From the NCBI RefSeq assembly GCF_026151205.1, contig NC_087074.1, positions 1,612,001 to 1,676,000 on the forward strand: a stretch of DNA of 64,000 nt. Direction: 5' to 3'. The stretch's first letter is position 1, and each line of letters begins with the position of its first letter. A program made the position numbers and the translations under genes. Below, piece after piece: positions 18,202 to 63,415 of this stretch. The notes beneath the pieces were generated by a model. It saw only the letters and a list, made by a program, of their open reading frames with translations, was not told the origin of the DNA and did no database searches. The DNA is from Bolinopsis microptera. Taxonomy: Eukaryota; Ctenophora; Tentaculata; Lobata; Bolinopsidae.

Positions 18202-18210
<9 letters not shown>
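18127..18210 (+). repeat. Leader repeat of ACGGACAAAA words, copy 1
   Basis: Repeated AAAACGGACAAAA words are followed by ATAACAAAAAT, GAAATAA, and ATTTAGATGCTTCC, running directly into the (TCC)n tract. The same block with only a few differences precedes the second (TCC)n tract at 18,937-19,024. Confidence 0.85.
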
Positions 18211-18233
<23 letters not shown>

Positions 18234-18896
18234 CTCCTCCTCCTCCTCCTCCTCCTCCTTCTCCTCCTCCTCCTCCTCCTCCTCCTCCTCCTCCTCCTCC
18301 TCCTCTTCCACCTTCTCCTCCTCCTCCTCCTCAGCCATCCTCCTCAGCCATCCTCCTCAGTCCTCCTCAGTCCTCCTCAGTCCTCCTCAGTCCTCCTCAG
18401 TCCTCCTCCTCTGCAGTCCTCATCATCCTCCTCAGTCCTCCTCCTCCTGGGTCCTCCTCCTCCTCTTCATCCTCCTCCTCTTCCTCCTCAGTCCTCAGTC
18501 CTTCTCCTTAGTCCTCCTCCTCATCCTTTTCGTCAGTACTCCTCCTCCTCAGTCCTCCCCCAGTCCCCCTCCTCCTCCTATTCAGTCCTCCTCCTCCTCC
18601 TCCTCAGTTCTCCTCCTTCTCATTCCTCCTTCTGAGTCCTCCTCATTCCTCCTTCTGAGTCCTCCTCTTCCTCCTCTTTCTCCTGAGTCCTCCTCCTGGG
18701 TCCTCTTTCTCCTCCTCCTTCTCAGTCCTCCTCCTCCTCCCTCTCAGTCATCCTCCTCAGTCATCCTCCTCAGCCATCCTCCTCAGCCATCCTCTTCAGC
18801 GATCCTCCTCAGTACTCCTCAGTCCTCCTCCTTCTCAGTCCTCCTCAGTCCTCCTCCTCAGTCATCCTTCTCCTCCTCCTCCTCCAGGGGGGATCC
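18203..18896 (+). repeat. (TCC)n-rich tract 1
   Basis: About 690 bases of almost pure pyrimidines on the plus strand: a perfect TCC run at the start, then interrupted TCC blocks with recurring CAGTCC words. Long polypurine-polypyrimidine tracts can form triplex (H-DNA) structures. Open frames across it (Leu/Pro/Ser on one strand, Glu on the other) are composition artefacts. Confidence 0.95.
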
Positions 18897-18936
18897 TGTT
18901 TTTTATCCGTTTTTTCCGTTCGGAACCCTATATTAT

Positions 18937-19024
18937 CAAAACGGACAAAAAATAGAGCGGACAAAAACGGACAAAAACGGACAAAAAATAACAAAAATGG
19001 AAATAATATTTAGATGCTTCCTCC
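18937..19024 (+). repeat. Leader repeat of ACGGACAAAA words, copy 2
   Basis: Nearly identical to 18,127-18,210, again ending in TTTAGATGCTTCC and running straight into a TCC tract. Upstream, at 18,903-18,930, short inverted TCCGT words and CCGTTCGGAACCC interrupt the pyrimidine tract. Confidence 0.85.
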
Positions 19025-21360
19025 TCCTCCTCAGTCTTCCTCAGTCATCCTCCTGAGTCCTCCTCCTGGGTCCTCCTCCTGGGACCTCCTCCTCTTGGGT
19101 CCACCTCCTCTTCATCCTCCTCCTCTTCCTCCTCAGTCCTCAGTTCTCCTCCTCAGCTCAGTCCTCCTCCTCAGTCCTCCTCCTCATCCTTTTCCTCAGT
19201 CCTCCTCCTCAGTCCTGCCCAGTCCCCCTCCTCCTCCTATTCACTCCTCCTCCTCCTCCTCCTCCTCCTCCTCCTCCTCCTCCTCAGTCCTCCTCCTCAG
19301 TCCTCCTCCTCCTCAGTCCTCCTCCTTCTCAGTCCTCCTCCTCCTCAGTCATCCTCCTCAGTCCTTCTCCTCCTCAGTCCTTCTCCTCTTCCTCCTCCTC
19401 CTCCTCAGTCTTCCTCATATTCCTCAGTCCTCCCCCAGTCACCCTCCTTCTCAGTCCTCCCCCAGTCACCCTCCTCCTCATCCTCATCCTCCTCATCAGT
19501 CCTCCTTCGCCTTCTCAGTCCTCCTCTTCAGTCCTCCTCCTCCTTTTCCTGGTTCCTCCTCCTCAGTCCGCATTCTCCTCCTCAGTCCTTCTCAGTCCTT
19601 TCCCCAGTCACCCTCCTCCTCATCCTCCTCATCAGTTCTCCTTCTCCTTAGTCCTCCTCCTCAGTCCTCCTCCTCCTCCTCCTGGGTTCTCCTCCTGGAT
19701 CCCTCTTCTCCTCCTCAGTCCTTCTCCTCCTCCTCAGTTATCCTCCTCCTCCTCCTTCTCCTCCTGGGTCCTCCTCCTTCTGCTCACCAGTCCTCCTCCT
19801 CACTCCTCAGTCCTCCTCATCCTCTTCATCCGCTTACTTCTCCTCCTCATCAGTCCTCATCAGTCCTCCTCCTCCCAAGTCATCCTCCTCCTCCTGGGGC
19901 CTTTTCCTGTGTCCTCCTCCTCCTGGGTCCTCCTCCTCAGTCCTCCTCCTCTTCCTTCTCCTCAGTCCTTCTCCTCCTCAGTCCTTCTCCTCTTCCTCCT
20001 CCTCAGTCTTCCTCCTCCTCAATCCTTTCCCCAGTCACCCTCCTCCTCATCCTCATCCTCCTCATCAGTCCTCCTTCTCCTTCTCAGTCCTCCTTCTCAG
20101 TCCTCCTCCTCCTCTTCTTCCTGGTTCCTCCTCCTGGGTCCTCCTTCTCCTCCTCAGTCCTCCTCCTCTTCCTCCTCCTCCTGGGTCCTCCTGATCCTCC
20201 TCAGTCTTCTTTCTCCTTCTACTCCTCAGTCCTCCTCCCCCTCAATCCTCCTCTTCCTCCTAAGTCCTCCCCTCCTCAGTCCTCCTAAGTCCTCCCATTC
20301 TCAGTCCTCCTCCTCATCAGTCCTCTTCACCAGTCCTCCTCCTCAGTCCTCCTTATCCTCATCCTTCATCTCCTTCCTTCATCTCCTTTCTCCTCCTCAT
20401 CCTCCTCATACACCTCCTCCTCATCAGTCCTCCTCCTCACTGCTCACTCCTTCTCCTCCTCCTCCTCCTCCTCCTCCTCCTCCTCCTCCTCGTCCTTAGT
20501 CCTCTTTATCAGTCCTCATCAGTCCTCATCAGTCCTCCTCCTCCCCAGTCCTCCTTTTGGGGCCTTTTCCTGGGTCCTCCTCCTGGGTCCTCCTCCTCTT
20601 GGGTCCTCCTCCTCTTGGGTCCTCCTCCTCATCCTTCTCCTTAGTCCTCCTCCTCCTCAGTCCTCCTCTTGAGTCCTTCTTCTCCTCCTCCTCCTATTCA
20701 TTCCTCCTCCTCAGTTCTCCTTCTCAGTCTCACTCCTCCTTCTCAGTCCTCCTCCTCCTCTTCTTCCTGGTTCCTCCTCTTGGGTCCTCCTTCTCCTCCT
20801 CAGTCCTCCTCCTCTTCCTGGGTCCTCCTGATCCTCCTCAGTCTTCTTCCTCCTTCTACTCCTCAGTCCTCCTCCTGCTCAATCCTCCTCTTCCTTCTAA
20901 GTCCTCCCCTCCTCAGTCCTCCTAAGTCCTCCCCTTCTCAGTCCTCCTCCTCATCAGTCCTCTTCACCAGTCCTCCTCCTCAGTCCTCCTTATCCTCATC
21001 CTTTATCTCCTTTCTCCTCCTCATCCTCCTCATACACCTCCTTCTCCTCATCAGTCCTCCTCCTCACTCCTCAGTCCTTCTCCTCCTCCTCCTCCTCCTC
21101 GTCCTTAGTCCTCTTTATCAGTCCTCATCAGTCCTCATCGGTCCTCCTCCTCCCCAGTCCTCCTCATGGGGCCTTTTCCTGGGTCCTCCTCCTCTTGGGT
21201 CCTCCTCCTCTTGAGTCCTTCTTCTCCTCCTCCTATTCATTCCTCCTCCTCAGTTCTCCTTCTCAGTCTCACTCCTCCTCAGCCCCCCTCCTCTCCCTCC
21301 TCAGTCCCTCCTCAGTCCCCCTCCTCAGTCCCCCCTCCTCCTTTTCCTCTCTTTCATCTC
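19014..21360 (+). repeat. (TCC)n-rich tract 2
   Basis: About 2.35 kb of TCC-based sequence. It contains at least one long internal duplication: the stretch around 20,090-20,560 recurs, slightly shorter, around 20,740-21,160, including GATCCTCCTCAGTCTTC, AAGTCCTCCC and CCTTAGTCCTCTTTATCAG. The array therefore grew both by slippage and by copying longer blocks. Long frames seen in it are not genes. Confidence 0.95.
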
Positions 21361-22221: not shown

Positions 22222-22473
22222 TCAAATCTAATTGCAGCGGCACACACTTACTATTACTATCATGATTGTACTATAGACAGAAAATCTTTCAAATCGATTT
22301 TGGGCGCTTTTTAAACATTTGTTGTAATGTAAGGGGCACTATCCGTCGCGGAGTCGAGTCCGCGGCGGAGCCGCCGGACTCCGAGCGGACTCCGAGCGGA
22401 CTCCGGCGGAGCCGCCGGACTCCGAGCGGACTCCGGCGGAGCCGCCGGACTCCGAGCGGACTCCGGCGGTGCT

Positions 22474-22516
22474 CCGCCAAAATGTATTTACAGTGGACTC
22501 GAGTACATTTTGGCGG
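22474..22516. repeat. Conserved hairpin inside GC-rich terminus
   Basis: CCGCCAAAATGTA (22,474-22,486) and its exact complement TACATTTTGGCGG (22,504-22,516) flank a 17-base loop. The mirror copy is at 25,444-25,486. Degraded copies lie at about 46,985, 52,360, 57,733 and 63,075. Confidence 0.8.
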
Positions 22517-23799
22517 ACTCCGAGCGGAGCCGAGCGGAGCCGAGCGGAGCCGAGCGGACTCCGAGCGGACTTTAAAGTCCGCCGCGGACTCCGAGCGGCT
22601 CCGCGGCGGCTCGGCGGAGTGTCCGCCGCGGACTAAGCCACTAGGCGGACTCCGGTCCGCCGCGGACTCCGGCGGAGTGCTTGGCGGACTCCGCCGGACC
22701 TCTCCGCCAGACTTGAATCCGGCGGAGTCCGGCGGAGCTTGGCGGAGTCCGCCAGCTCGGCGGACTCCGCTCGGAGTCCGCCGGACTCCAACAGAGTCCA
22801 CTGACTTCCGACCTCCGTCTTCCGACCCTCGGCTAAATTTGTCACGTGACATACAACATAGCATTTTGCAATATTGTGGTCAGATGAAAAGGTCGCTAGT
22901 GATAAACCTTAACCATTACCCTCACATGAATGTCAATAGTGTACAACTCTAGTCCTAACTTTGACGCTATAATGTATAAACGTTGACCCTAACCCTCCAC
23001 CAAACCGTCCGCAGCGAAATATCAATGTCATTGACTGGTCACGTGACCAAAACAATTTTTGTCATATTATCTCATATGGGGAAGCGTTTTTAGCAAGCAA
23101 AAATACGTCGACCATCACAGGACGACGCCAGCACTCTCTACGCTCGTCGAGCTCCGATCGTCCTGTGACGAAGTAAGGACGAAGCCTGAGGTCCTCAGGT
23201 AACATCGACCACCGATTGAAAATTCAAAGATTTTTTGACAGAAAGGTCAAATGTAAAACTAAAATCTTGATGTTAATTGATTGACGACGTCAATTTTTGA
23301 GCACAGCGCGAGCGCATGCGGAAAAGGACCGCGTAGCTAGTCAAGATGTTGATAAATATTTGGCTTGTGGCGCGATGTGTTGCTTTAAGTCTAACTATAG
23401 CCCTTTCGCTTGCAGTAGCGCGCGACCGCCGGAGGCGGAAATGACCTGGTTAGCTAGGTAAACGCGATGTGCCTTGTAGGATGAAATCCTACTAGCTGAC
23501 GCCATTCGCAGCTGTGCTGCTCGCTGTACGTCAGCGATCGAAATTTATACGCGTATCCCCCGTTAAGATGTGCCACTCGACGCGCCACACAATTTTTCTC
23601 GTTGCTCGTCGCACGTCGACGAACAACGAAGCTCGTTGCGACGCGCAATGAGCTGCCAGGCTAGGACATCGTCCTGGTCCAACAAATTTTGGCGAGCGAT
23701 TTTCTCCAAAAATTTAATATATATATATTATTTATATATATAATGAGGGCGCCGACTTCCACTCTGGCTAGGTTTCTTGTTACCCAGCGCGCGTTCCTT

Positions 23800-24210: not shown

Positions 24211-25786
24211 GACCCGCCGCGCTGGGTAAGAAGAAACCTAGCCAGAGTGGAAGTCGGCGCCCTCATTAAATTTTTGGAGAAAATCGCTCGACAAAATTTG
24301 TTGGACCAGGACGATGTCCTAGCCTGGCAGCTCATTGCGCGGCGCGTCGCAACGAGCTTCGTTGTTCGTCGACGTGCGACGAGCAACGAGAAAAATTGTG
24401 TGGCGCGTCGAGTGGCACATCTTAACGGGGGATACGCGTATAAATTTCGATCGCTGACGTACAGCGAGCAGCACAGCTGCGAATGGCGTCAGCTAGTAGG
24501 ATTTCATCCTACAAGGCACATCGCGTTTACCTAGCTAACCAGGTCATTTCCGCCTCCGGCGGTCGCGCGCTACTGCAAGCGAGAGGGCTATAGTTAGAGC
24601 AACACATCGCGCCACAAGCCAAATATTTATCAACATCTTGACTAGCTACGCGGTCCTTTTCCGCATGCGCTCGCGCTGTGCTCAAAAATTGACGTCGTCA
24701 ATCAATCAACATCAAGATTTTAGTTTTACATTTGACCTTTATGTCAAAAAATCTTTGAATTTTCAATCGGTGGTCGATGTTACCTGAGGACCTCAGGCTT
24801 CGTCCTTACTTCGTCACAGGACGATCGGAGCTCGAAGAGCGTAGAGTGCTGGCGTCGTCCTGTGATGGTCGACGTATTTTTGCTTGCTAAAAACGCTTCC
24901 CCATATGAGATAATATGACAAAAATTGTTTTGGTCACGTGACCAGTCAATGACATTGATATTTCGCTGCGGACGGTTTGGTGGAGGGTTAGGGTCAACGT
25001 TTATACATTATAGCGTCAAAGTTAGGACTAGAGTTGTACACTATTGACATTCATGTGAGGGTAATGGTTAAGGTTTATCACTAGCGACCTTTTCATCTGA
25101 CCACAATATTGCAAAATGCTATGTTGTATGTCACGTGACAAATTTAGCCGAGGGTCGGAAGACGGAGGTCGGAAGTCAGTGGACTCTGTTGGAGTCCGGC
25201 GGACTCCGAGCGGAGTCCGCCGAGCTGGCGGACTCTGCCAAGCTCCGCCGGACTCCGCCGGATTCAAGTCTGGCGGAGAGGTCCGGCGGAGTCCGCCAAG
25301 CACTCCGCCGGAGTCCGCGGCGGACCGGAGTCCGCCTAGTGGCTTAGTCCGCGGCGGACACTCCGCCGAGCCGCCGCGGAGCCGCTCGGAGTCCGCGGCG
25401 GACTTTAAAGTCCGCTCGGAGTCCGCTCGGCTCCGCTCGGAGTCCGCCAAAATGTACTCGAGTCCACTGTAAATACATTTTGGCGGAGCACCGCCGGAGT
25501 CCGCTCGGAGTCCGGCGGCTCCGCCGGAGTCCGCTCGGAGTCCGCTCGGAGTCCGCTCGGAGTCCGGCGGCTCCGCCGCGGACTCGACTCCGCGACGGAT
25601 AGTGCCATGTTTTTAGATAAGTTAAATATCTAAATCTATAAAATTTTTTATCGGAATGAATTAATTGATATTTAATAATTTATTCGGTAGGTTTATCTGG
25701 TATTGATATTGATTATATTGATATTGTTATTATTGAACGAAGCTAACTCTAGACATAGTTAATACTACTTCTTTTAAGAAAGGGAC

Positions 25787-36727: not shown

Positions 36728-39700
36728 GTAAGTATACATCTTCATAATATTCATATTTTTAAAGTTGCACTATTAAAATTCAAATCAACAGAAATTTGCT
36801 ATTAATCCTGTTATCATAAATATTTAAACTTGTTACAGGGATCTGGCCAGTGTCCAGAGTGTGCTCATGGAGCACTTTATAACCGATATCATGGGCCTTT
36901 GTGACGAAAATTCGAAGGAGAGTGTCCTGGAGGAATACCTTTTGAGCCAGCATGGGACACTTCTTATTGAAACATTATCTTTGCTCACCAAACAAGTAGG
37001 ATATTATATTACATTGGTCTATTAACTGTGGTTGTGCTGGTGAAATTATTTGATGTGTTCTTAACGTTTATTGATGATTCAATGAAAGGATAAAGGAGAT
37101 AAATAGTGTTTTACTTTCAGTCAGAGCCTACAACCCACATCAGTGAACTAGCTCCTTTGGTATTGAGTCTCATAGACTTTATCATGAACTGGAATACAAA
37201 TGTTGTCATCAGTACAGGTAGGAGCTCAGTTTTACTTAAACCAGGTTCCTCTCCACAGTCGAACTAACGTTTGCACATTTCCAAATTAGTTGCATCATCC
37301 TGTAGGGGTTGATAATGCACATGGTAGGGTTATTGTTTATAATGCCCTGGCCATTGTAAGTGGATCTGTAATCCAATTCAATTAGTGAACACAAATGTAG
37401 ATCACATGTTTAATACATGAGCATAAGATAGGATTACACTTCCAAAGCTGCTAAGCATAATAATTTATAAATAAATGTTAATCAAATTAACCCCAGATCT
37501 CTTTTCAACGTGCTCTTTGGACAAGTGTTTTGGTGATGAACCAGTGTTGATTGTGAATACTACAAACACAGAAATACAGACAACAATGAATGAAGCAGAG
37601 AATATAACAGCTGGGAAAATCGTGGAAGAGAAAGAATCCAAGAGTAACGATACAGAAAAAGATCCTAAAATAGACCCAGAAAGTGAGGCTCAACAGCGAG
37701 GATCACTCTACTTGTCCTTGTCACATCTCCTTAACCTTGCCAACAACTTGGGTTGTGTCCAAAGATGTACTTCAATTCCTGAAAACAAGGTTTTTGTAGC
37801 TCGATTGATTTACCTTTCATCATGTGAAACAAATTTTAGAAGAATCAAAGTTTGATGTTTAGAAAATTTCTTTTGTACCTATATAACTTATCTGCAATGT
37901 AAATGTTAAACTCATTAATGACCATGTATCATTGACAACACAATTTTTATAAATATTCAACAATAATTTAATTTGAATTTAACTAGAATACGTCAGGTCT
38001 CAATAATAATTCTAGCTCACTTGATTGGAGTTCTGGGTCAGCAGTGTTCGGAGCAAACTGAAAAGGAGCCACCTAGAAGTCCTGTCTGTAGTGTGTTTGT
38101 AAAGCGGTCCCTACTCCTAACCATCCTCTCTATTGCTAATTCTATCCTTGTGTCAGTCTTCCATATTTACCATTAATTTTAAATGCGATCTAATCTGATG
38201 TGCAATATTTCGTACATAATTAATATTTGAAATGATTCTTATGGGTAGTTGATGCTTCGAAATTAAAATTAACAACTTCGAGTTTGGAAGTTTTGCTCGA
38301 AATATAATTAATCCAATTAATAACATCAGTAAAGATGTGCTGTTGCTGGCTCAGAGTCAGTTTATGGATCAGATGATCGCTCTTGCTGACACTTGTTCTG
38401 ATGCTAACATCAAATCTACTCTTTTAACTGGTAAGGGTGGGGATTATACATTATATATATATAATATATATTAATGCTTTTCATACAAAGTTATAACGAA
38501 TTCTTCATGTCGTGCATCTGGGTTTGGACAGGATATGCCCGCTCAATAAATGTAAAAGATTTGTAGTGTTGTAATTAGTTTTACATTTGTCATGTTTAAT
38601 TAGGTAAAGTTTTGAAAATATTGAAAAAATATTGAAAAACATTTATTACAAAAGGGATAATTTTACTGATTGTCTGTTTTCAGGACTCCTAATCCTGCTG
38701 GAAAAGAGTCTGAATCTCCCTGGCAACGACATTACAGGATTCTCTACCTTCTTTGCTCAATTCTTCCTCCTGGGGTTCAAACAGTGTGCCAATACACTCT
38801 GCAACTGCGGCGAGGTGGCTGTCTTTATATATCTTATCTGACTTGTCGACTTGATCTATCTGACTTGATCCATTTAATCGATTTACGTACCATAGTTTCA
38901 ATCGTCATGAGACTATTACTGTAACTACTGTTACCATGACAACACTACTGTTACCTGTTACAATCGTTACTAAAGGATGCTCAGTAGATTGATGAAGCCT
39001 TTAAATCTATTTCAGGTGATGTGTGAAAAAGAAGACGACTTACTTAAAGCCAGTTCGGAGACACTGATAACACATCTAGCTTCACTGCACGGTGCTATCG
39101 AGATGAGCGAGAAGTAAGACAATACGTCACAATCTTTCTCTTTAGTTTGTGTGGTGTTTAGTATACCCTTATATGGGCATCACGTGTGGTGTTTGGTATA
39201 CCCTTACATACACGTGATGCCCTTATATGGGCATCACGTGTTTAGATAGCGGTTATTATTGCGACAGTATTCGAATAAAAGACAATTTTGATGATAGTTG
39301 TTAGTACAAATATCAATTATTTGCTACCAGCGTATCACTACTGACTAGTAGGAATAGTCTCAGTAAGTCTCACTGCCCCCCCCCTCACCCCCTCACCCCC
39401 TCACCCCCTCACCCCACAGATCAGGATTAACAGAATACATAGAACAAAACAGAATTATTGGAGACTCTGTTGACAGCACTTCCACCCCTGGCTCAGCTCT
39501 CTTCTTTACATTCGCCCTCTCCAATTCCGTCTTTTTACAGGTATGTACCCGACTTTTCATTAATTTGTTTGAGAATATTTTATGGTTTTTCTTAGGTGTA
39601 TAAGATGGCTTTTAAATTGAGGTAGAGCTGATTTATAGTTAAAAACTATTTTGTTGACCATGATCCTAAAATGTCTAGTTAAAGATAATTCTTACCCAAT

Positions 39701-42700
39701 GTTCGTGACGGAATTATGTAACCTGAATATGTTATAATAATACCGTATACTATTTACATTTAATAAACAACTTCATGAATGATAATATAAGTTATGAATA
39801 ATGTAACAAACAAAATGTAACAGTGTTACGATTATGTAAGTTATGTCAATATCATATTGTGTAGTATTATGTAAATATGTGTAATGATTGTTTTTTTCAG
39901 GAGTGTGTGTTGGATAGTTGCCTGGAACACGGTGTAGTGTGTAATGTGTCTCTTAAACAGGTAACTATGGGAACCCTGGTAACCCTGGTAACCCCGGTAA
40001 CCCTGGTAACCCTGGTAACCAGTATAATGTGTCTCTTAAACAGGTAACTATGGAAACCCTGGTAACTATGGTAACCCGGGTAGTGGTAACTATGGTAACC
40101 CTGGTAACTATGGTAACCCTGGTAACTATGGTAATCCTGGTAACCCTGGTAACCCTGGTAACGGATTATTCTCACCCGCATTTTGGGGCCGTCTCAATAT
40201 TCATTACTTATCCGGGTCGTGATTCTGAGACCGGATAAGCTTTTAGTTATTTTTGGTCTGATTGGTCCTTGTGCAATGGGGCTGATAGGCGGGCCCCCTT
40301 ACTTAGATAATATCGCCTTTATGTTAATATGATTTTTATGCTCACTCACAAAAAGCACTTTTATGATGTCAAAGATGGTTGAATTATAAAATATGTAAAA
40401 AGTAATGTATTTTATGGATTGTGGTATAACACACTCTTTTTCTCTTCAGACGTTCACATTGTTGCTGTGGAACTACAAGCAGCGTCCTGAACACGTACAG
40501 TGTAAAGTGCTGTCCGGACTTGAAAAGGTTTGTTAACAGTGTGTTGGACACGTGCCAATACTTTAGTAGTGTGTTCGACACGTGCCAATCCTTAACAGTG
40601 TGTTGGACACGTGCCAATACTTTAACAGTGTGTTGGACACGTGCCAATACTTTAACAGTGTGTTGGACACGTGCCAATACTTTAGTAGTGTGTTGGACAC
40701 GTGCCAATACTTTAGTAGTGTGTTGGACACGTGCCAATACTTTAACAGTGTGTTGGACACGTGCCAATACTTTAACAGTGTGTTGGACACGTGCCAATAC
40801 TTTAACAGTGTGTTGGACACGTGCCAATACTTTAACAGTGTGTTGGACACGTGCCAATACTTTAGTAGTGTGTTGGACACGTGCCAATACTTTAACAGTG
40901 TGTTGGACACGTGCCAATACTTTAGTAGTGTGTTGGACACGTGCCAATACTTTAACAGTGTGTTGGACACGTGCCAATACTTTAACAGTGTGTTGGACAC
41001 GTGCCAATACTTTAGTAGTGTGTTGGACACGTGCCAATACTTTAGTAGTGTGTTGGACACGTGCCAATACTTAAGTAGTGTGTTGGACACGTGCCAATAC
41101 TTTAACAGTGTGTTGGACACGTGCCAATACTTTAACAGTGTGTTGGACACGTGTCAATACTTTAACAGTGTGTTGGACACGTGCCAATACTTTAGTAGTG
41201 TGTTGGACACGTGCCAATACTTTAGTAGTGTGTTGGACACGTGCCAATACTTTAGTAGTGTGTTGGACACGTGTCAATACTTTAACAGTGTGTTGGACAC
41301 GTGCCAATACTTTAACAGTGTGTTGGACACGTGCCAATACTTTAACAGTGTGTTGGACACGTGCCAATACTTTAACAGTGTGTTGGACACGTGCCAATAC
41401 TTTAACAGTGTGTTGGACACGTGCCAATACTTTAGTAGTGTGTTGGACACGTGCCAATACTTTAACAGTGTGTTGGACACGTGCCAATACTTTAACAGTG
41501 TGTTGGACACGTGCCAATACTTTAGTAGTGTGTTGGACACGTGCCAATACTTTAACAGTGTGTTGGACACGTGCCAATACTTTAACAGTGTGTTGGACAC
41601 GTGCCAATACTTTAACAGTGTGTTGGACACGTGCCAATACTTTAACAGTGTGTTGGACACGTGCCAATACTTTAGTAGTGTGTTGGACACGTGCCAATAC
41701 TTTAGTAGTGTGTTGGACACGTGCCAATACTTTAACAGTGTGTTGGACACGTGCCAATACTTTAACAGTGTGTTGGACACGTGCCAATACTTTAACAGTG
41801 TGTTGGACACGTGCCAATACTTTAACAGTGTGTTGGACACGTGCCAATACTTTAACAGTGTGTTGGACACGTGCCAATACTTTAGTAGTGTGTTGGACAC
41901 GTGCCAATACTTTAACAGTGTGTTGGACACGTGCCAATACTTTAACAGTGTGTTGGACACGTGCCAATACTTTAGTAGTGTGTTGGACACGTGTCAATAC
42001 TTTAACAGTGTGTTGGACACGTGCCAATACTTTAACAGTGTGTTGGACACGTGTCAATACTTTAACAGTGTGTTGGACACGTGCCAATACTTTAGTAGTG
42101 TGTTGGACACGTGCCAATACTTTAACAGTGTGTTGGACACGTGCCAATACTTTAGTAGTGTGTTGGACACGTGCCAATACTTTAACAGTGTGTTGGACAC
42201 GTGCCAATACTTTAGTAGTGTGTTGGACACGTGCCAATACTTTAGTAGTGTGTTGGACACGTGCCAATACTTTAACAGTGTGTTGGACACGTGTCAATAC
42301 TTAAACAGTGTGTTGGACACGTGCCAATACTTTAACAGTGTGTTGGACACGTGTCAATACTTTAACAGTGTGTTGGACACGTGCCAATACTTTAGTAGTG
42401 TGTACAGACTGTTCATATCTTTAGTGATTTGACTAAAAATGGTCGACATATCTTGCTCTTTATCAAAGTATCAATGTATATTGCTCCTTTAAAATAATAG
42501 CCCCTTTTTTTGTAATGTGACCCATCTTTGTGACCAGTGTATTTATTGTAAATTAGATTACACGATAGTTCTTGTTGAACATTCTCTACTCAGCTCAGCA
42601 TCTCTCCTGGAAATATCCCTTTTTTCTGAGAAATAACCCACTTTTTTGTGAAGTTTGGGATAAAATATCATCCCGCAAGTTATATTAGAGCGCCACCACC

Positions 42701-45700
42701 GTCAATTAATAACACTCTAATTTCACTGTTGTTCTCTTTAACAGGCAGTACTCACTATAATGACTGTGTCCTATTACAGGTATTACTGACAGCTCCCTTT
42801 TAACAGGTAGTACTGACTGCTGATAAGTATGAGTTTCTCTTCCCTACCTCTCCCTCCTCCTCTCCACAATACCAAGCTGCTGACTTCAAGGAACGATTCA
42901 TGAACTTCTCTAATGATTTGTTTGAGAAGCGGAAGAAGCAGCAAAATGCAAATAAATCTATCTCCGATCATTGGTCCTGCTTGTCTGACTACTGCCAGGT
43001 TAGCTTAGTTAGTTTAGTTAGCTTAGTTAGCTTAGTAAAATTAGTTAGCTTAGTTAGCTTAGTTAGCTTCAGTAAGCTTAGTTAAGTTTAGTTAGCTTAG
43101 CCAGCTTAGTTAGCTTAGTTAGCTTAGTTAGCTTTAGTAAGTTTAGTTAGCTTAGTTAAATTAGTTAGCTTAGTTAGCTTAGTTAGCTTAGTTAGCTTAG
43201 TTAGTTTAGTTAGCTTAGTTAGCTTAGTTAGCTTAGTTAGCTTAGTTAGCTTAGTTAGCTTAGTTAACTTTAGTTAACTTTAGTTAGCTTAGTTAGCTTA
43301 GTTAACTTAGTTAACTTAGTTAGTTTAGTTAACTTAGTTAGCTTAGTTAGCTTAATGAGTTGAGTTAGCTCAGTTAGCTTAGTTAGCTTAGTTAGCTTAG
43401 TTAGCTTAGTTAGCTTAGTTAGCTTCAGTTTCACTTACTATAGATAAGTACTGTCTTATTGCAAAGGAACTGGTTGGTTTTGTTATTCAATAACTTAATT
43501 GTTTCTAAAAACCGCTATATTTAAACCTGGTCAGGTGTTACGAGACAGTAACGAAACACTGATCACAACATTGGGAGAACACCTCAGCTCACTTTGTAGT
43601 AAAGGAAGTCAACAACTCAGAACTAAACTACTTAAATACTTGTTCCTAAAAGAGGTATGTTTGTTTATACATACCCTTATATGGGCATCACGTGTTTAGT
43701 ATACCCTTATATGGGCATCACGTGTTTATTGTTTACATATTATATTATTTTCATAGTTAACCGTTAAATTACCACTTCCATTCCATACACTGTGTCTCTT
43801 ACTATCTTTACACGACGAGAAGTAAACTATCGTATTCTTATTATAAGATATTAATTAAAGTTACGTAGTGCAGTAAGTTACGTAATCCTTTTACTCTTTT
43901 TATCATTTAAGTACTTAGTAGGAAAGCCGCCTTGACACGGGTAATTAATATTTCTTAACAATATAATATATTGTCGATAAGAGTAATACAGTAAAACCCC
44001 GATTTACCGCGGAGTTTGGGGAAAGGAAACATCCGCGGTAAATCGGGGTTCGCGGTAAATCGGGTTTTTGTTCGTTTACACTTTACATTATGCACGTTAA
44101 GCCATATCTTGGGGAAAGGAGATTGCGGTAAATCGGGGCGCGGTAAATCGGGGTTTTACTGTATCTTGTTACATATAATTTCATATTTTGCGTTAATAAA
44201 TAGTTTGCTCATCCTATTTATATTTCCCGGCATTGTTTAACTGAACTATATCATTGTTTACCGTTGTGTGCAAATCTTGCAGATGCGTGATATTGGAAAC
44301 TATTTCGCGCTACACTACACGAAAAACAGCAGTCTCAGCAGACAGCAGCACATGTCCAATATAGGTTAGTGCCCTTCTCCGACCCTTGTTAAAATAAATT
44401 CAGTTGTTTTGTACTATTCATCTTTCTACGGTCTACGTCATGTGTATTCAGCATCTTCTGACGTCACACTCTCCCTCACGTGACGTCACACTCTCCCTCA
44501 CGTGACGTCACACTCTCCCTCACGTGACGTCACACTACAACGTCACTATTTTAACAGCATGACGTCACAACTTAACTCACGTGACGTCACTATTTTAACA
44601 GGTATAAGCACGATGATTCTGTACCGAGACCTCTGCACTCCCGAACTAATTGTCACTACAATAATGCCCTCGCTGCTGCACCTTCTGGACGACGCGGACA
44701 GGAAGCTTCTCTTTCACAGCGGTAAGTTGCGAAAATTTGCCTACATTCCTAACTTCCTGTTTCATTTGTCCTTGTCTCTTCCAACCGGATATTATCCAAC
44801 TATCGGCAGCTGTATCAATAGTATTATATAAAGTGGTTACGTTCGAATCTTTTACCATACACTGTGTGACGATAAAGGAACCAGTTGATTGTTGAATTAT
44901 AAATAGAGCCGAATTGTTGTAAAGTACTCAGCTGGAGTGGTCTCAGTGGTCTCTGTAGTCTCAGTGGTCTCTGTAGTCTCAGTGGTCTCAGTGGTCTCAG
45001 TGGTCTCTGTAGTCTCAGTGGTCTCAGTGGTCTCTGTAGTCTCTGTAGTCTCAGTGATCTCAGTGGTCTCTGTAGTCTCAGTGGTCTCAGTGGTCTCAGT
45101 GGTCTCTGTAGTCTCAGTGGTCTCAGTGGTCTCAGTGGTCTCTGTAGTCTCAGTGGTCTCTGTAGTCTCAGTGATCTATGTAGTCTCAGTGGTCTCTGTA
45201 GTCTCAGTGGTCTCTGTAGTCTCAGTGGTCTCTGTAGTCTCAGTGGTCTCTGTGGTCTCTGTAGTCTCAGTGGTAATCTCTGTGGTCTCAGTGGTCTTGC
45301 GAAATATCAACCTCCCTCCCCCAGTGGGTCTCTGTGGTATCAAGTACAAAATACTCACTATCACCACTCCTCTGTAACCTTAATCACGGTGTACATTATT
45401 ATATTACATGTAATGTATATCGTATTCTCGTAATAGTTTCAATTAAATCGGGCTTCCTTATAATCCCCTCAAGTGTGTAATTTAGTTGTATTATCTGCAC
45501 TCAGTCATAATTCATATCATTGCGTTTTCCATATTATTGAACTTGTCGAACCATTTATAAAGTATCCTGTAGCGCGTGCAAATAGTGATAATGTAGCACG
45601 TGCAAATAGTGATAATCACGCTACTCATCTGATACACCTTGTTTCATTTCTGATTTCTCAATGTTTCTAGAAATCTAATAACACTGAGTTCTATCAATAC

Positions 45701-46618
45701 AGCCGAGCTTGAGAGCTTGAGAGATGAGTATGTACCTACCTTGTCAGATGAAATTGGTGTCTGGGGTCGCAGTGTAGACTGCTAGTTCTAGAGTTTCTGT
45801 AAGGAGATTGTGATAAACCACGTGGTGCCCATATAAGGGTATACTCAACACTCGTGTTACCTGCGGACAATAATTGTCACGGTATATCTACTGTACATAG
45901 CTGTGTTGGGAAGTTAATCATGCCTTGCAAACAAAAGGCTGGTTGAAAATACTGATTTGATGGTTCTAAGCCCTGCCCGAACCTGACCAATGGGCAGGTC
46001 GTAGTTGAAAGTTACCTTGTGATGCCCATATAAGGGTATACTAAACACGTGATGCCCATATAAGGGTATACTCAACACGATACTATAGAGTTGTAAGTTA
46101 CTGAGAGACCTGCACTGAATACAATACTGGAAGGCTATGTAATGGGCTCCATTATCTTATTGATATTGTAATTGCAGCTCAGCAAGGGAGGGATTACCTA
46201 ATATGGTCTGGAACATTACCTAATAATAATATGGTCTGGAACATTACCTAATATGGTCTGGAACTGATCGTGTTGCTCAAGTACCTTAAGTTTGTGTGTT
46301 TCATTACTCGATAAGTGATAATGACTGTTGACCACAAACATTGTTCACCTCGGAGCTGATAGATTTGAAAATTATCCTTCTATAAGTACCTGCAATTTTA
46401 TTTGTTAATTCGACTTAACCATTAACTAATTAATTGAATCTCCAATTAACTAATTAACTAATTAACTAAATCTCTAATTAACTAATTAACCCATTATCGC
46501 AGAGTCGGGCGTGGATAGTCTGCAGTATCTGATCCACCACAAGCTGACACGAACTCACGTGCTCCAGCTTTACCAGCTTCTCATCTCCGGGGATCAGGGA
46601 CCTCCCGAGCTTATTCCG
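36559..46618 (+). CDS. Host gene, 14 exons, helical HEAT/ARM-like protein
   Basis: Fourteen exons with consensus GT-AG borders and matching codon phases are visible between 36,559 and 46,618 (listed separately), giving about 480 codons. The gene is open at both ends: the true first exon may lie upstream, and coding continues beyond 46,618, where an array of repeats begins. Exon sequence is GC-balanced and regular in codon use, unlike the AT-rich introns. The protein is leucine-rich and amphipathic throughout with no transmembrane or signal segment, like HEAT/ARM-type helical repeat proteins. Exons at 39,016 and 43,535 start alike (VMCEKEDD and VLRDSNET, each followed by TLIT-L). I cannot name the family; large scaffold proteins are candidates only by style. 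Introns are loaded with tandem repeats. Confidence 0.75.
36839..36995 (+). CDS. Host gene exon B
   Basis: Acceptor TTGTTACAG and donor GTAGGA. Encodes LASVQSVLMEHFITDIMGLC and LEEYLLSQHGTLLIETLSLL. Phase joins exactly with exons A and C. Confidence 0.8.
37121..37217 (+). CDS. Host gene exon C
   Basis: Acceptor TTACTTTCAG and donor GTAGGA. Encodes HISELAPLVLSLIDFIMNW. Ends in phase 1, matching exon D. Confidence 0.8.
37497..37789 (+). CDS. Host gene exon D (acidic linker plus helix)
   Basis: The longest exon. A Lys/Glu/Asp-rich, probably disordered stretch (VEEKESKSNDTEKDPKIDPE) is followed by LYLSLSHLLNLANNLGCVQR. Acceptor TTAACCCCAG and donor GTTTTT. A Ser/Asn-rich phase-0 stretch after an AG at 37,981 (NTSGLNNNSSSLDW) could be an extra exon but lacks a clear donor. 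Confidence 0.8.
38283..38430 (+). CDS. Host gene exon E
   Basis: Encodes FARNIINPINNISKDVLLLA and QFMDQMIALADTCSDANIKS. Donor GTAAGG is good. The acceptor before TTTGGAAG is poor in pyrimidines, so the exact start is uncertain. Confidence 0.7.
38684..38814 (+). CDS. Host gene exon F
   Basis: Acceptor TCTGTTTTCAG and donor GTGGCT. Encodes LLILLEKSLNLPGNDITGF and STFFAQFFLLGFKQCANTLC. Phase agrees with both neighbours. Confidence 0.8.
39016..39113 (+). CDS. Host gene exon G
   Basis: Acceptor TCTATTTCAG and donor GTAAGA. Encodes EKEDDLLKASSETLITHLAS. Similar in pattern to exon L. Ends in phase 2. Confidence 0.8.
39161..39240. promoter_or_regulatory. CArG box plus E-box repeat (two copies)
   Basis: The word CCTTATATGG, a perfect CArG box, is followed by GCATCACGTG, which contains the E-box CACGTG, at 39,167-39,186 and again at 39,221-39,240. 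The second copy is preceded by CACGTGATGC, so 39,211-39,240 is a 30-base palindrome with one mismatched pair at the centre. Other copies lie at 43,670-43,729, 45,816-45,850 and 46,019-46,078. Regulatory use is inferred only from the motifs. Confidence 0.6.
39376..39419 (+). repeat. C-rich tandem repeat at an acceptor
   Basis: Four to five CTCACCCC units follow a C9 run and end in the CACAG acceptor of exon H. The repeat supplies the polypyrimidine tract. Confidence 0.85.
39420..39540 (+). CDS. Host gene exon H
   Basis: The acceptor CCCCACAG sits at the end of a C-rich tandem repeat. Donor GTATGT. Encodes SGLTEYIEQNRIIGDSVDS and ALFFTFALSNSVFLQ. Confidence 0.8.
39901..39960 (+). CDS. Host gene exon I
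   Basis: A 60-base exon with acceptor TGTTTTTTTCAG, encoding ECVLDSCLEHGVVCNVSLKQ. Its last 19 bases plus the donor are duplicated at 40,025-40,043, inside the following tandem repeat. Confidence 0.75.
39961..40160 (+). repeat. GGTAACCCT tandem repeat starting at a donor
   Basis: Units of 9 bases (GGTAACCCT and GGTAACTAT) begin at the donor of exon I. Embedded at 40,025-40,053 is a second copy of the exon end and donor, identical over 29 bases to 39,942-39,970. Confidence 0.9.
40450..40527 (+). CDS. Host gene exon J
   Basis: Acceptor TTTCTCTTCAG. Encodes TFTLLLWNYKQRPEHVQCKV and LSGLEK. The donor GTTTGT is immediately followed by the 30-bp minisatellite. Confidence 0.75.
40528..42410 (+). 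repeat. 30-bp minisatellite, about 63 units
   Basis: Near-perfect 30-base units built from GTGTTGGACACGTGCCAATA and a variable TTTAACA or TTTAGTA segment. About one third are the second type. A few units have GTGTCAATAC. The array starts at the donor of exon J. It has no stop in most frames on either strand, which creates long artefactual open frames. Each unit carries CACGTG, and the first type carries CTTTAACAG, like this gene's acceptors. Confidence 0.97.
42744..42820 (+). repeat. Three near-copies of an acceptor junction
   Basis: TTTAACAG/GCAGTACTCACT, ATTACAG/GTATTACTGACAG and TTTTAACAG/GTAGTACTGACTG follow each other within 77 bases. The last is taken as the acceptor of exon K because it leaves the frame open. 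Confidence 0.7.
42807..42998 (+). CDS. Host gene exon K
   Basis: Encodes VVLTADKYEFLFPTSPSSSP, DFKERFMNFSNDLFEKRKKQ and ISDHWSCLSDYCQ. The acceptor (CCTTTTAACAG) is the third of three near-copies of an acceptor plus exon-start word. The donor CAG/GTTAGC opens straight into a 9-bp tandem repeat. Confidence 0.75.
42999..43425 (+). repeat. 9-bp tandem repeat starting at a donor
   Basis: About 45 units of GTTAGCTTA with variants (GTTAGTTTA, GTTAACTTA). The first unit is the donor of exon K itself. Confidence 0.95.
43535..43654 (+). CDS. Host gene exon L
   Basis: Acceptor AACCTGGTCAG and donor GTATGT. Encodes VLRDSNETLITTLGEHLSSL and QQLRTKLLKYLFLKE, a clear amphipathic helix pair. Confidence 0.8.
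43670..43729 (+). promoter_or_regulatory. CArG box plus E-box repeat (tandem pair)
   Basis: Two direct copies of the 30-base unit containing CCTTATATGG and CACGTG, as at 39,161. Confidence 0.6.
43989..44161. mobile_element. Pogo/Tigger-like MITE
   Basis: A 173-base element with perfect 23-base terminal inverted repeats starting CAGTAAAACCCCGATTTACC, flanked by TA on both sides (43,987-43,988 and 44,162-44,163). Further GCGGTAAATCGGG words lie just inside both ends. The CAGT start and TA target fit pogo-type Tc1/mariner elements. It has no coding capacity. Confidence 0.88.
44283..44364 (+). CDS. Host gene exon M
   Basis: Acceptor AAATCTTGCAG and donor GTTAGT. Encodes MRDIGNYFALHYTKNSSLSR and QQHMSNI. 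Ends in phase 1. Confidence 0.75.
44459..44600 (+). repeat. GACGTCACACTCTCCCTCACGT repeat before an acceptor
   Basis: Three direct units of about 22 bases with GACGTCACACTCTCCC, then two copies of CGTCACTATTTTAACAG. The second is the acceptor of exon N. Each unit carries TGACGTCA-like and CACGTG words. Confidence 0.85.
44602..44721 (+). CDS. Host gene exon N
   Basis: Acceptor ATTTTAACAG and donor GTAAGT. Encodes MILYRDLCTPELIVTTIMPS and LLHLLDDADRKLLFHS. The acceptor word is duplicated about 40 bases upstream. Confidence 0.8.
44936..45296 (+). repeat. Tandem repeat of GTCTCAGTG/GTCTCTGTA
   Basis: Roughly forty 9-base units alternate between GTCTCAGTG and GTCTCTGTA. The Val-Ser open frame across it is an artefact. 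Confidence 0.95.
45566..45618 (+). repeat. Short direct duplications in the same intron
   Basis: GTAGCRCGTGCAAATAGTGA is present twice in tandem. Further down the same intron a 22-base ACCTAATATGGTCTGGAAC-type word is repeated three times (46,195-46,265), and TAATTAAC words are repeated at 46,425-46,490, just before the acceptor of exon O. Confidence 0.75.
45816..46078 (-). promoter_or_regulatory. CArG box plus E-box repeats, reverse orientation
   Basis: Three inverted copies of the 30-base unit (one at 45,816-45,850, with CACGTG shifted to CCACGTGG, and two at 46,019-46,078), each with CCATATAAGG. Confidence 0.6.
46503..46618 (+). CDS. Host gene exon O (last visible)
   Basis: Acceptor ATTATCGCAG and donor GTTAGT. 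Encodes GVDSLQYLIHHKLTRTHVLQ and LYQLLISGDQGPPELIP. Phase matches exon N. The next exon must lie beyond the repeat array that begins about 20 bases into the intron. Confidence 0.8.
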
Positions 46619-46915: not shown

Positions 46916-47320
46916 GCACTTTCCGTCGCGGAGTAAGAGTCCGCGGCGTGTGCCGCCGGACTCCGACGCGGAATAAGGCGGATGCTCCGCTAAAATGTAT
47001 TTACACTGGAACCTGAGTACATTTTTGGCGGTCTTCCGAGCGGAGCGAAGCGGGACTCCGAGCGGAATCCGAGGGACTTTAAAGGTCCGCGCGGACTCCG
47101 AGCGGCCCGCGGCGGCTCGGCAGAGTGTCCGCCGCAGAGTAAGCACCTAGGCGGAATCGGTTCCGTGAGGACTCCGGCGGAGTGCTTTGGCGGGGACTCC
47201 GCCGGAACTTCAGCAGACTTGAACGCCGGATGTCCGCTGCTCGGCGGAATCCGCTCGGAGGTCCGCGGACTCCAACAGAGTCCACTGACTTCCGACCTCC
47301 GACTTCCGACCCTCAGAGCA
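46916..47320. repeat. GC-rich terminus, array copy 1
   Basis: Degraded copy of the outer arm of the giant palindrome, from GGCACTTTCCGTCGCGGAGT to the CACGTGACATACAAC word. It retains the AAAATGTATTTACA loop region. Confidence 0.85.
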
Positions 47321-47504
47321 TAAATTAGTCACGTGACATACAACATGGCATTTTGCAATATTGTGGTCAGAGATGAAAAGGTGTAGTGATAAACCTTAAC
47401 CATTACCCTCACAATGTCAATAGGTACAACACTTAGTCTAACTTTGACCCTTATTGGCATAAAACGTTGACCCTAACACACCTCCACCAAAACGTCGCAG
47501 CGAT

Positions 47505-52010: not shown

Positions 52011-52292
52011 GACTCTTATCTCTGTTTATAATATGGGTCCATATATAAAGTACTGCTTCGATTTACCGATTAATTTAGTGAAAAGTTGATTTATTATTCA
52101 GGCATACGTAATTTTTAAAATATTTTGACTCGTAAAATAATTTTATAGTTTGAATATTTGTTTAATATTGATTATCATATTAATGAAGTATATAATCAAA
52201 TGGTTGTCAGTTAATTAGTATGTTCTCTTTCCTTGTTTGAACACATCAGTTTAATCTAGAACTTCTAAGACATCAGAAGTCGTTTTTAATTG

Positions 52293-52715
52293 GCAATATC
52301 CGTCGGCGGTGTAGAGTCCGCGGCGGCCAGCCGCAGGAATCCGAGCGGACTCCGGCGGTGCTCCGCCTAAAATGTATTTTATACCCCCACTGGACTCGAG
52401 GTACATTTTGGAGGACATCCGAGCGGAGCCGTGACGGGACTCCGAGCGGACTCCGAGCGGTACTTTAAAGTCCGCAGACGGACTCCGAGCGGCTCCGCGG
52501 CGGATCGGCAGAGAGTGTCCGTCCGCAGAGTAAGCCACTAGGCGGACTCGGTTCCCCCCCACTGCGGACTCCGGCGGAGTGTCTGGCGGACTCGCCAGGA
52601 CATCTCCGCCAGATTTGAATCCGCCGGAAGTCGCCAGCTCGGCGGACTCGCTCGGAGTCCGCCGGACTCCAACAGAGTCCACTGATTCCGTACTTCCGAC
52701 TTCCGACCCTAGGCA
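52293..52715. repeat. GC-rich terminus, array copy 2
   Basis: As copy 1, with homopolymer C insertions at about 52,386 and 52,556 that look like sequencing artefacts. Confidence 0.85.
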
Positions 52716-52914
52716 TAATTTGTCACGTGACATACAAAAATAGCATTTTGCAATATTGTGGTCAGATGAAAAGGTCGCTAGTGATAAAAACCTTAACTTA
52801 CCCTCAACTATGTCAATGTGTTACAAAACTCTGCTCCTAACTTTGGACCCTTTAATGTATTAAACGTTGACCCTAACCTCACAAACCGCTCCGCAGCTGA
52901 ATATATCAATGTCA

Positions 52915-57652: not shown

Positions 57653-58070
57653 GCACTATCCGTCGCGGAGTAGAGTCCGCACCCAAGGCGGAGCCGCGGA
57701 ATCCGTGCGGACTCCGGGCCGGTGCTCCCGCTTAAAATGTAGTTAAACTGGATCGAGTCATTTTGGGCGGACTCGAGCGGAGCCGAGCGGGGACTCCAGA
57801 GCGGACTCCGAGCGGGACTTTAAAGTCAGCCGCGGCTCCAGAGCAGGCTCCGCGGAGGATACCGGCAGAGTGTCCGCCGCCTGAGTAAGCCTCTTGGCGG
57901 ACTCGGTCCGATGCGGACTCCGGCGTGTGTTGGCGGACTCCGCGGTACCCTCTCCGCCAGACTTGAATCCAGCCGGAGTCCGCCAGCTCCGGCGGACTCC
58001 GCTCGGAGTCCGCCAGGACTCAAACAGAGTCCACTGACTTCCGACCTCCGCTTCCGTCCCTCGGCTAAAT
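57653..58070. repeat. GC-rich terminus, array copy 3
   Basis: Starts GGCACTATCCGTCGCGGAGT and ends before CACGTGACATACC. Closest of the array copies to the clean palindrome arm at its first 20 bases. Confidence 0.85.
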
Positions 58071-58254
58071 TTGTCACGTGACATACCAAAATGCATTTTG
58101 CAATATTGTGGTCAGATGAAAAGGTCGCTAGTGATACCCTTAACCATTACCCTCACAATGTCAATAGTGTACAACTCTAGTCCTAACTTTGACCCTATAA
58201 TGTATTACGTTGAACCTAAACTCCTCACTCACAAACAGGTCCGCTGCGAAATTT

Positions 58255-62725: not shown

Positions 62726-63005
62726 AGTAAGATCTTTATATAGTATATAATATGGTATATATAAAGTACTGCTTAGATTTCACGATTTATTTTAGTGAAA
62801 AGTTGTTTTATTTTATGTTACGTAATTTTAAAATATTTTTTGATCGAAAAGAATGTTTTATATTTTGAATATTTGTTTATAATTGATTAAATACATTAAG
62901 TAATTATCTAATCAAATGGTTGTCAGTTAAAAAGGTTGTTCTTTTCCTGTTTGTGAACACATCAGGTTTAATCTAGAAACTTTCTAAGAATCAGAAGTCG
63001 TTTTT

Positions 63006-63415
63006 TTTGCACTATCCGTCGACGGAGTAGAAGTAAGCGGCGGAGACGCGGACTCGAGCGGACTCCGCGGTTGCTCCGCTAAAATGTATTTTAAATGGAC
63101 TCGAGGACTTTTTGGCGGACTCCGAGCGGAAAAGCCGAGCGGACTCCGAGCGGTACTCCGTGCGGACTTTAATGTCCGCGCGGATCCGTGCGGCTCGCGG
63201 AGGCTCGGCTGAGTGTCCGCGAAGAGTAAGCCTATAGGCGGACTCGGGTCCGCTGCGGACTCCGGCGGATGTCGCAAGGGTAGGCGGGACTCCGACTGAC
63301 TCTCCGCCCAGACTTGAATCAGCCGAGTCCGCCTGGCTCGGCGGGACTCGCTCGGGTACGGCCGGGACTCCAACAGAGTCCACTGAACTTCACGACCTCG
63401 ACTTCCGACCCTCGG
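63006..63415. repeat. GC-rich terminus, array copy 4
   Basis: Fourth array copy, from GCACTATCCGTCG to the word before GTCAGTGACATTAAAAAC. Confidence 0.85.

Follow-up and report, generated by a model that had tools for sequence, protein, structure and literature searches.

Why should tandem repeats lie on the splice junctions of a gene? The question is raised by a gene on the plus strand of a 64-kb window of the Bolinopsis microptera genome (contig C3, positions 1612001-1676000; the genome searched comprises 264.65 Mb in 232 contigs). The modelled part of this gene extends over approximately 36839-46618 of the window, and 15 exons were modelled from the sequence and its open frames. Exons 5-15 comprise 406 codons without a stop and with consistent phases, and exons 1-4 comprise 233 codons without a stop; the exon borders were set by the open reading frame, and the intron joining exons 4 and 5 (38150-38330) is uncertain. 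Three exons are of special interest here: exon I (39901-39960, open frame ECVLDSCLEHGVVCNVSLKQ), exon J (40450-40527) and exon K (42807-42998). Their borders were also obtained with our gene finder, an agreement that is not independent, since the finder was trained partly on the window gene itself. The product shows only weak HEAT-repeat similarity: the Pfam profile RRP12_HEAT was matched with E values of 0.0046 (333 aa) and 0.016 (639 aa), below the curated cut-off, and searches of Pfam and of solved structures revealed neither a matching structure nor a clear family.

Other repetitive sequences are present in the window. At 18208-21340 one strand carries pyrimidine repeats rich in TCC over some 3.1 kb, and GC-rich blocks of the type CGGACTCCGAGCGGAGTCC recur at 22363-22790, 25028-25612, 46920-47330, 52251-52820, 57758-58111 and 62984-63415. 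Within the introns of the gene the short dispersed word CCCTTATATGGGCATCACGTG is present several times in both orientations (39166-39240, 43674-43724 and 46021-46066), and the intron after exon 43535-43654 contains at 43989-44165 the inverted repeat GTAAAACCCCGATTTACCGCGG with its complement, which by eye resembles the end pair of a small transposon.

According to the original prediction, a different tandem array begins on the donor base in each of the three consecutive introns I, J and K. Tandem Repeats Finder (TRF) and the sequence place the array starts at the donor or at most 5 bases from it. In intron K (donor CAG|GTTAGC at 42999) the first base of the array is the first intron base; this plus-strand array (42999-43430) consists of 47.3 copies of the 9-bp unit GTTAGCTTA. 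In intron I (donor CAG|GTAACT at 39961) the 9-bp array of GGTAACCCT at 39960-40162 (plus strand) starts one base early and thus includes the last exon base. In intron J (donor AAG|GTTTGT at 40528) TRF lets the 30-bp array of 62.4 copies (40533-42403, plus strand) begin 5 bases past the donor. Apart from these small shifts, the predicted positions are correct. Intron J, with 2279 bases, consists of array over 1871 bases, and intron K, with 536 bases, over 432, so that the arrays account for the length of both introns, in line with the idea that duplication has lengthened them.

The original prediction also has repeats that end at acceptors, and this is the case in three introns of the gene: the arrays detected there by TRF, all on the plus strand, stop at most 6 bases away from the acceptor. 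The 8-bp array of CCCCCTCA at 39380-39415 ends 4 bases short of the intron end at 39419. Two 22-bp arrays (44459-44536 and 44540-44601), in which the word ACTATTTTAACAG is present twice, together cover 44459-44601 and reach the acceptor. The 8-bp array of ATTAACTA, given by TRF as two overlapping rows at 46421-46496, ends 6 bases short of the intron end at 46502. A counter-example is the 18-bp array at 44940-45297 (plus strand), which is located at a distance from both ends of its intron (44722-46502). Altogether the 14 introns of the gene contain 16 arrays, and six of these introns have none.

When the arrays were shuffled within their introns, 0.44 donor and 0.44 acceptor contacts were expected within 6 bases, as compared to the three and three observed (P 5e-5); within 10 bases, 6 of the 16 arrays were near a junction, with 0.69 expected per side (P 0.0007). 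Since shuffling whole arrays in introns forbids straddling of a junction, we also used a stricter null model, called seed null below, in which each array is collapsed and a single seed unit is placed anywhere overlapping the intron. It yields a weaker result for the window gene (6 arrays within 10 bases, 2.7 expected, P 0.04). All these P values are after the fact, because the gene was picked for its repeats.

Do the arrays consist of splice-site DNA, as was proposed, and do they keep spare splice sites? For intron I the answer to both questions is positive. A segment of 22 exon bases, the donor and the adjacent intron sequence (39939-39999, plus strand) is repeated 83 bases downstream at 40022-40082 with 56 of 61 bases identical; the donor word is identical over 20 bases, so that a second, identical donor is located at 40044. 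The duplicated acceptor and donor words of the original prediction were recovered at two further places on the plus strand: the acceptor word of intron J (TTTAACAG|GTAGTACTGACT) is present in three diverged forms at 42737, 42774 and 42799 (42737-42816; best match 16/20), and a duplicated word at 44553-44600 was noticed by eye. The donor arrays of introns J and K, on the other hand, contain no copy of the exon tail, the last 12 exon bases being matched at most 8/12 and 6/12, respectively. In donor scoring, the exon-proximal donor was the best among the 304 GT sites of intron J (score 6.7) and among the 59 of intron K (7.1), while the best sites inside the arrays reached 3.3 and 2.3; in intron I it ties with its own copy at 40044. 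Thus, spare donors are a fact of the sequence in intron I, not in J or K.

These scores also bear on the possibility of misplaced exon borders, in which case the arrays would be coding in part or situated at other places of the introns. It is true that the borders were modelled from sequence rather than from transcripts, that the one at 38150-38330 is uncertain, and that both the 30-bp array and the array at 44940-45297 are open in several frames. However, the long open frame of exons 5-15 with its consistent phases and the rank of the donors of J and K in their own introns, together with the tie in intron I, speak against such an error, as does a dynein intron described below, which carries an array at its donor and is flanked on both sides by matches to the dynein profile. 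We consider misplaced borders very unlikely.

A survey of other introns had been proposed as a check of the junction pattern. We defined introns outside the window in two ways. Exon-wise matches to the profiles of dynein (PF12774) and myosin (PF00063) resolved 50 introns, of which 46 were kept; they belong to 11 dynein loci and a part of one myosin gene, which were chosen for several exon matches before repeats were seen. Another 71 introns were obtained with a home-made gene finder at helicase loci detected with PF00271, the same loci being used for its training, resulting in 117 introns in total. The four homology introns left out showed length deviations of more than 3 residues; pairs with profile ends that do not meet and one unresolved exon pair were also omitted. 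In the myosin gene of locus L063 (813-1286), two successive exons of related sequence encode one motor segment, as in mutually exclusive exons, and only one of these alternatives was used. Gene-finder introns were discarded if they were 4 kb or longer, if the gene score was below 40 or if a flanking exon scored below 5. Four short loci inside longer ones were left out, as was L050, a near copy of L043; these two helicase gene parts are about 290 kb apart on contig C1, and their predicted peptides are nearly identical. Locus L028, with an 8-bp array directly behind a helicase exon, was not counted because the next exon was not found. Arrays with period 1, with less than 24 bases or with less than half of their length inside the intron were ignored, and 'near' includes arrays beginning inside an exon. 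The first two versions of the gene finder were rejected because they mistook tandem arrays for exons; in the third, arrays were masked in training, and exons consisting at least half of array were rejected. The homology set is the safer one, since it does without this rejection, which might give an advantage to exons that border directly on an array.

Arrays were present in 20 of the 117 introns (26 arrays). Eight of them were within 10 bases of a junction, while shuffled positions predict 1.5 (P 0.0002): four on the donor side, three of which begin inside the exon (0.77 expected, P 0.0044), and four on the acceptor side (0.73 expected, P 0.0058). The excess was found in the homology introns alone (5 of 18 arrays, 46 introns, P 0.0014) and in the gene-finder introns alone (3 of 8 arrays, 71 introns, P 0.0088). 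At 6 bases or less, two donor-side arrays and no acceptor-side array remain in the homology introns alone, which is not significant (P 0.12). A smaller earlier set of 82 introns, superseded by the present one, had also contained arrays near junctions. Within this sample, the ends of introns are occupied by arrays more frequently than shuffling predicts, in favour of the original prediction.

How much of this excess could be coincidence? In a repeat-rich genome arrays may arise anywhere, and short introns and tolerant junctions could bring them into contact with splice sites without any process specific to junctions. In line with this, 18 of the 26 outside arrays are more than 10 bases away from either junction, and the seed null alone covers 3.2 (1.59 per side) of the 8 outside contacts within 10 bases and 5.8 of the 14 contacts among all 42 arrays in 131 introns, window gene included. 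At this distance either side by itself is weak outside the window (P 0.06), and at 6 bases or less the outside excess is gone (4 arrays, 2.7 expected, P 0.29). Arrays of the GTAACC type likewise show no donor bias: genome-wide, AAG or CAG precedes the GT at the start of 10 of 34, with approximately 9 expected from base composition in a calculation by hand. Against coincidence, the seed null leaves P values of 0.009 for the outside introns and 0.0017 for all arrays within 10 bases, and outside P values of 0.007 at 15 bases or less and 0.02 at 20 bases or less. The junction excess is thus modest, roughly 2.4-fold under the seed null, and the sample is small. The words at the junctions themselves also speak against coincidence: 3 of 131 donor 20-mers recur, each with 20/20 identity, further along in the same intron and within its first 600 bases, as compared to 0.08 expected from swapped introns, and acceptor words recur in 1 of 131 introns, as compared to 0.03. 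Around the donors, the profile of such words is without a sharp peak, since repetition was observed in 3 of 117 cases right at the junction and in 1-4 of 117 at adjacent offsets. Taken together, coincidence is a serious competitor, to which we give a minor share of the probability.

The clearest cases are found among the arrays that span a donor. TRF detected three of them outside the window and none spanning an acceptor. In a dynein gene on contig C2 (L061) the unit of 62-65 bases includes the donor GTTAGT and, in front of it, roughly 51 bases of the exon tail, resulting in 12 donors; the exon tail ...LFRPVAMTLPDFGLIIE continues past the intron as VILFSEGF, and it is here that the dynein profile is matched on both sides. 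In a DEAD-box helicase gene on C1 (L047) the exon end ...CEIIVATP with the donor GTAAGT is followed by copies which give 17 donors, 13 of the 16 steps between them being 29 bases. In another dynein gene on C1 (L057) there are two donors 55 bases apart, the second belonging to a second copy of the exon end plus GT. Together with intron I of the window gene, four introns therefore harbour a repeated unit with exon tail and donor, and the proposed duplication of splice-site DNA is directly visible in them, whereas the donor arrays of introns J and K lack it. The spare donors are identical over 20 bases in intron I, L061 and L047. In L057 and L061, which are different dynein genes, the duplications seem to follow one and the same codon (LFR.VAM..PD.....), and the starts of their units, measured from the donor, differ by no more than 2 bases.

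Could the spare donors be the reason why the arrays are kept? Selection might retain arrays as splicing aids, which provide additional donors, pyrimidine-rich runs at acceptors or looping out of introns. The identical donors mentioned above and the second exon end with GT in L057 would fit this explanation, and the acceptor array at 39380-39415 is pyrimidine-rich. However, no site in the arrays of J and K scores near the real donor, and the offset to the second donor is 83 bases in intron I and 62, 43 and 55 bases in the three other genes. Since none of these is a multiple of three, use of the second donor would shift the frame in all four measured cases, and splicing probably proceeds from the exon-proximal donor. 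A role as splicing aids is accordingly improbable.

The units of the arrays were also searched for elsewhere in the genome. All 32 matches to the 30-mer of intron J fall inside its own array. The 9-bp unit of intron I represents a motif present at dozens of places (40 scored of 99 candidates), and the 9-mer of intron K recurs in similar arrays at at least eight other places. The starts of eight other GTTAGCTTA arrays were read for an exon ending there, and seven of them looked promising by eye. As L068 and L069 are copies of each other, they were counted as one, resulting in seven independent loci: L066 and the pair L068/L069 showed a well-scoring exon ending at the array start (P 0.03 each in comparison to random positions), the exon-end scores of the other five gave P 0.16-0.34 in the same comparison, and Fisher's method over the seven loci gave P 0.011. 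Judgement by eye was thus too favourable. In the pair, one exon followed by a GTTAG array is found on contig C13 at two sites about 225 kb apart and in opposite orientation. Six peptides from the GTTAGCTTA array-start loci were tested in Pfam without any match. Counts of GTTAG array-start patterns (2, 1 and 8, with G before GT in 2 of the 8) were too small to be used.

Such recurrence would be expected from introner-like mobile elements which insert at splice sites and are then amplified in tandem, and the units of introns I and K as well as the short dispersed words in neighbouring introns may be counted in favour of them. An introner-like element should be present at many junctions; here, the 9-mers recur and a strong exon end was found at two of the seven independent GTTAG starts, and the 30-mer was found at one place. 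Units which span a donor consist of the sequence of the very exon they adjoin. In our view, mobile elements have a slim chance of being the source. The evidence falls short of one mechanism for all arrays: the 30-mer is found only here, the 9-mers recur, and the GTAACC starts are without donor excess.

In our opinion the arrays are best read as junction-born minisatellites resembling the 'mirages' of lancelets (see below), a reading to which we assign, from the sequence comparisons described here, a probability of roughly 0.6. A short segment at a splice junction may become duplicated through DNA polymerase slippage or microhomology-mediated repair. Any copy that falls behind the original donor would be intronic from birth and could persist, because it leaves the protein as it was; with further slippage it could grow into an array and lengthen the intron. 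Local tandem duplication at a junction would be tolerated because the exon-proximal donor still works. This evidence does not extend to most of the junction-touching arrays, since they are without exon sequence; those of J and K, like those at acceptors, may be intron arrays of the usual kind whose growth has reached a constrained exon edge. One may go further and propose that splice donors are the birth sites of minisatellites in this genome: short matches shared by donor words such as GTTAGT and GTAAGT with nearby exon or intron sequence would lead to frequent slippage, which would go unpunished because the copies fall into the intron, and a directional mutational process would lengthen introns from their 5' ends. 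This extension is tentative, and we regard it as rather unlikely to hold in this general form.

Mirages were described in lancelets (amphioxus) as minisatellite-like tandem duplications which contain an intron/exon boundary on the donor or acceptor side. They are reported from the globin, Adh3 and troponin C genes and in imperfect form from PGBD5, the AG/GT signals exist in many copies, and splicing was normal according to RT-PCR (PMC3087553, PMC3902484). Instability of the copy number between haplotypes is taken as a further trait of lancelet mirages. The same structure, exon and intron sequence across one boundary in tandem copies, is seen in intron I (two copies), L061, L047 and L057, with splice signals repeated as 2 identical, 12, 17 and 2 donors, respectively; it is absent from the donor arrays of introns J and K. 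In contrast to the lancelet cases, ours are in the ctenophore lineage, and the likeness was read from the sequence of one assembly. In addition, the donor side leads here, with three donor-spanning and no acceptor-spanning arrays detected by TRF outside the window, and many arrays merely abut the junction without exon sequence.

Related phenomena can be delimited from the present one. In the human gene IFI6 (6-16) a minisatellite is located at a donor, and its tandem units are themselves able to act as donors (PMC4526556); downstream units are reported to be used there and to yield different isoforms, whereas in our measured cases a later donor would shift the frame. With the duplications treated in PMC4974935 our arrays share the tandem duplication across an intron-exon boundary, and the likeness stops short of intron gain. 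Intron gain by tandem duplication takes the donor and the acceptor from two copies of one exon segment. In L061 and L057 the copies lie behind the donor of the intron. For ctenophores, we found no report of such arrays among the matches listed in a search of titles and abstract starts in the open-access literature.

The lengthening of introns is mostly credited to transposons. Arrays which start at a junction and carry exon sequence point to a different process of intron lengthening, and the unchanged adjacent exon hints at the reason for its tolerance. Should the excess persist across the full annotated genome, the pattern reported from lancelets would extend to a distant lineage of animals, and the rate of intron growth could be measured through copy-number variation at these sites.
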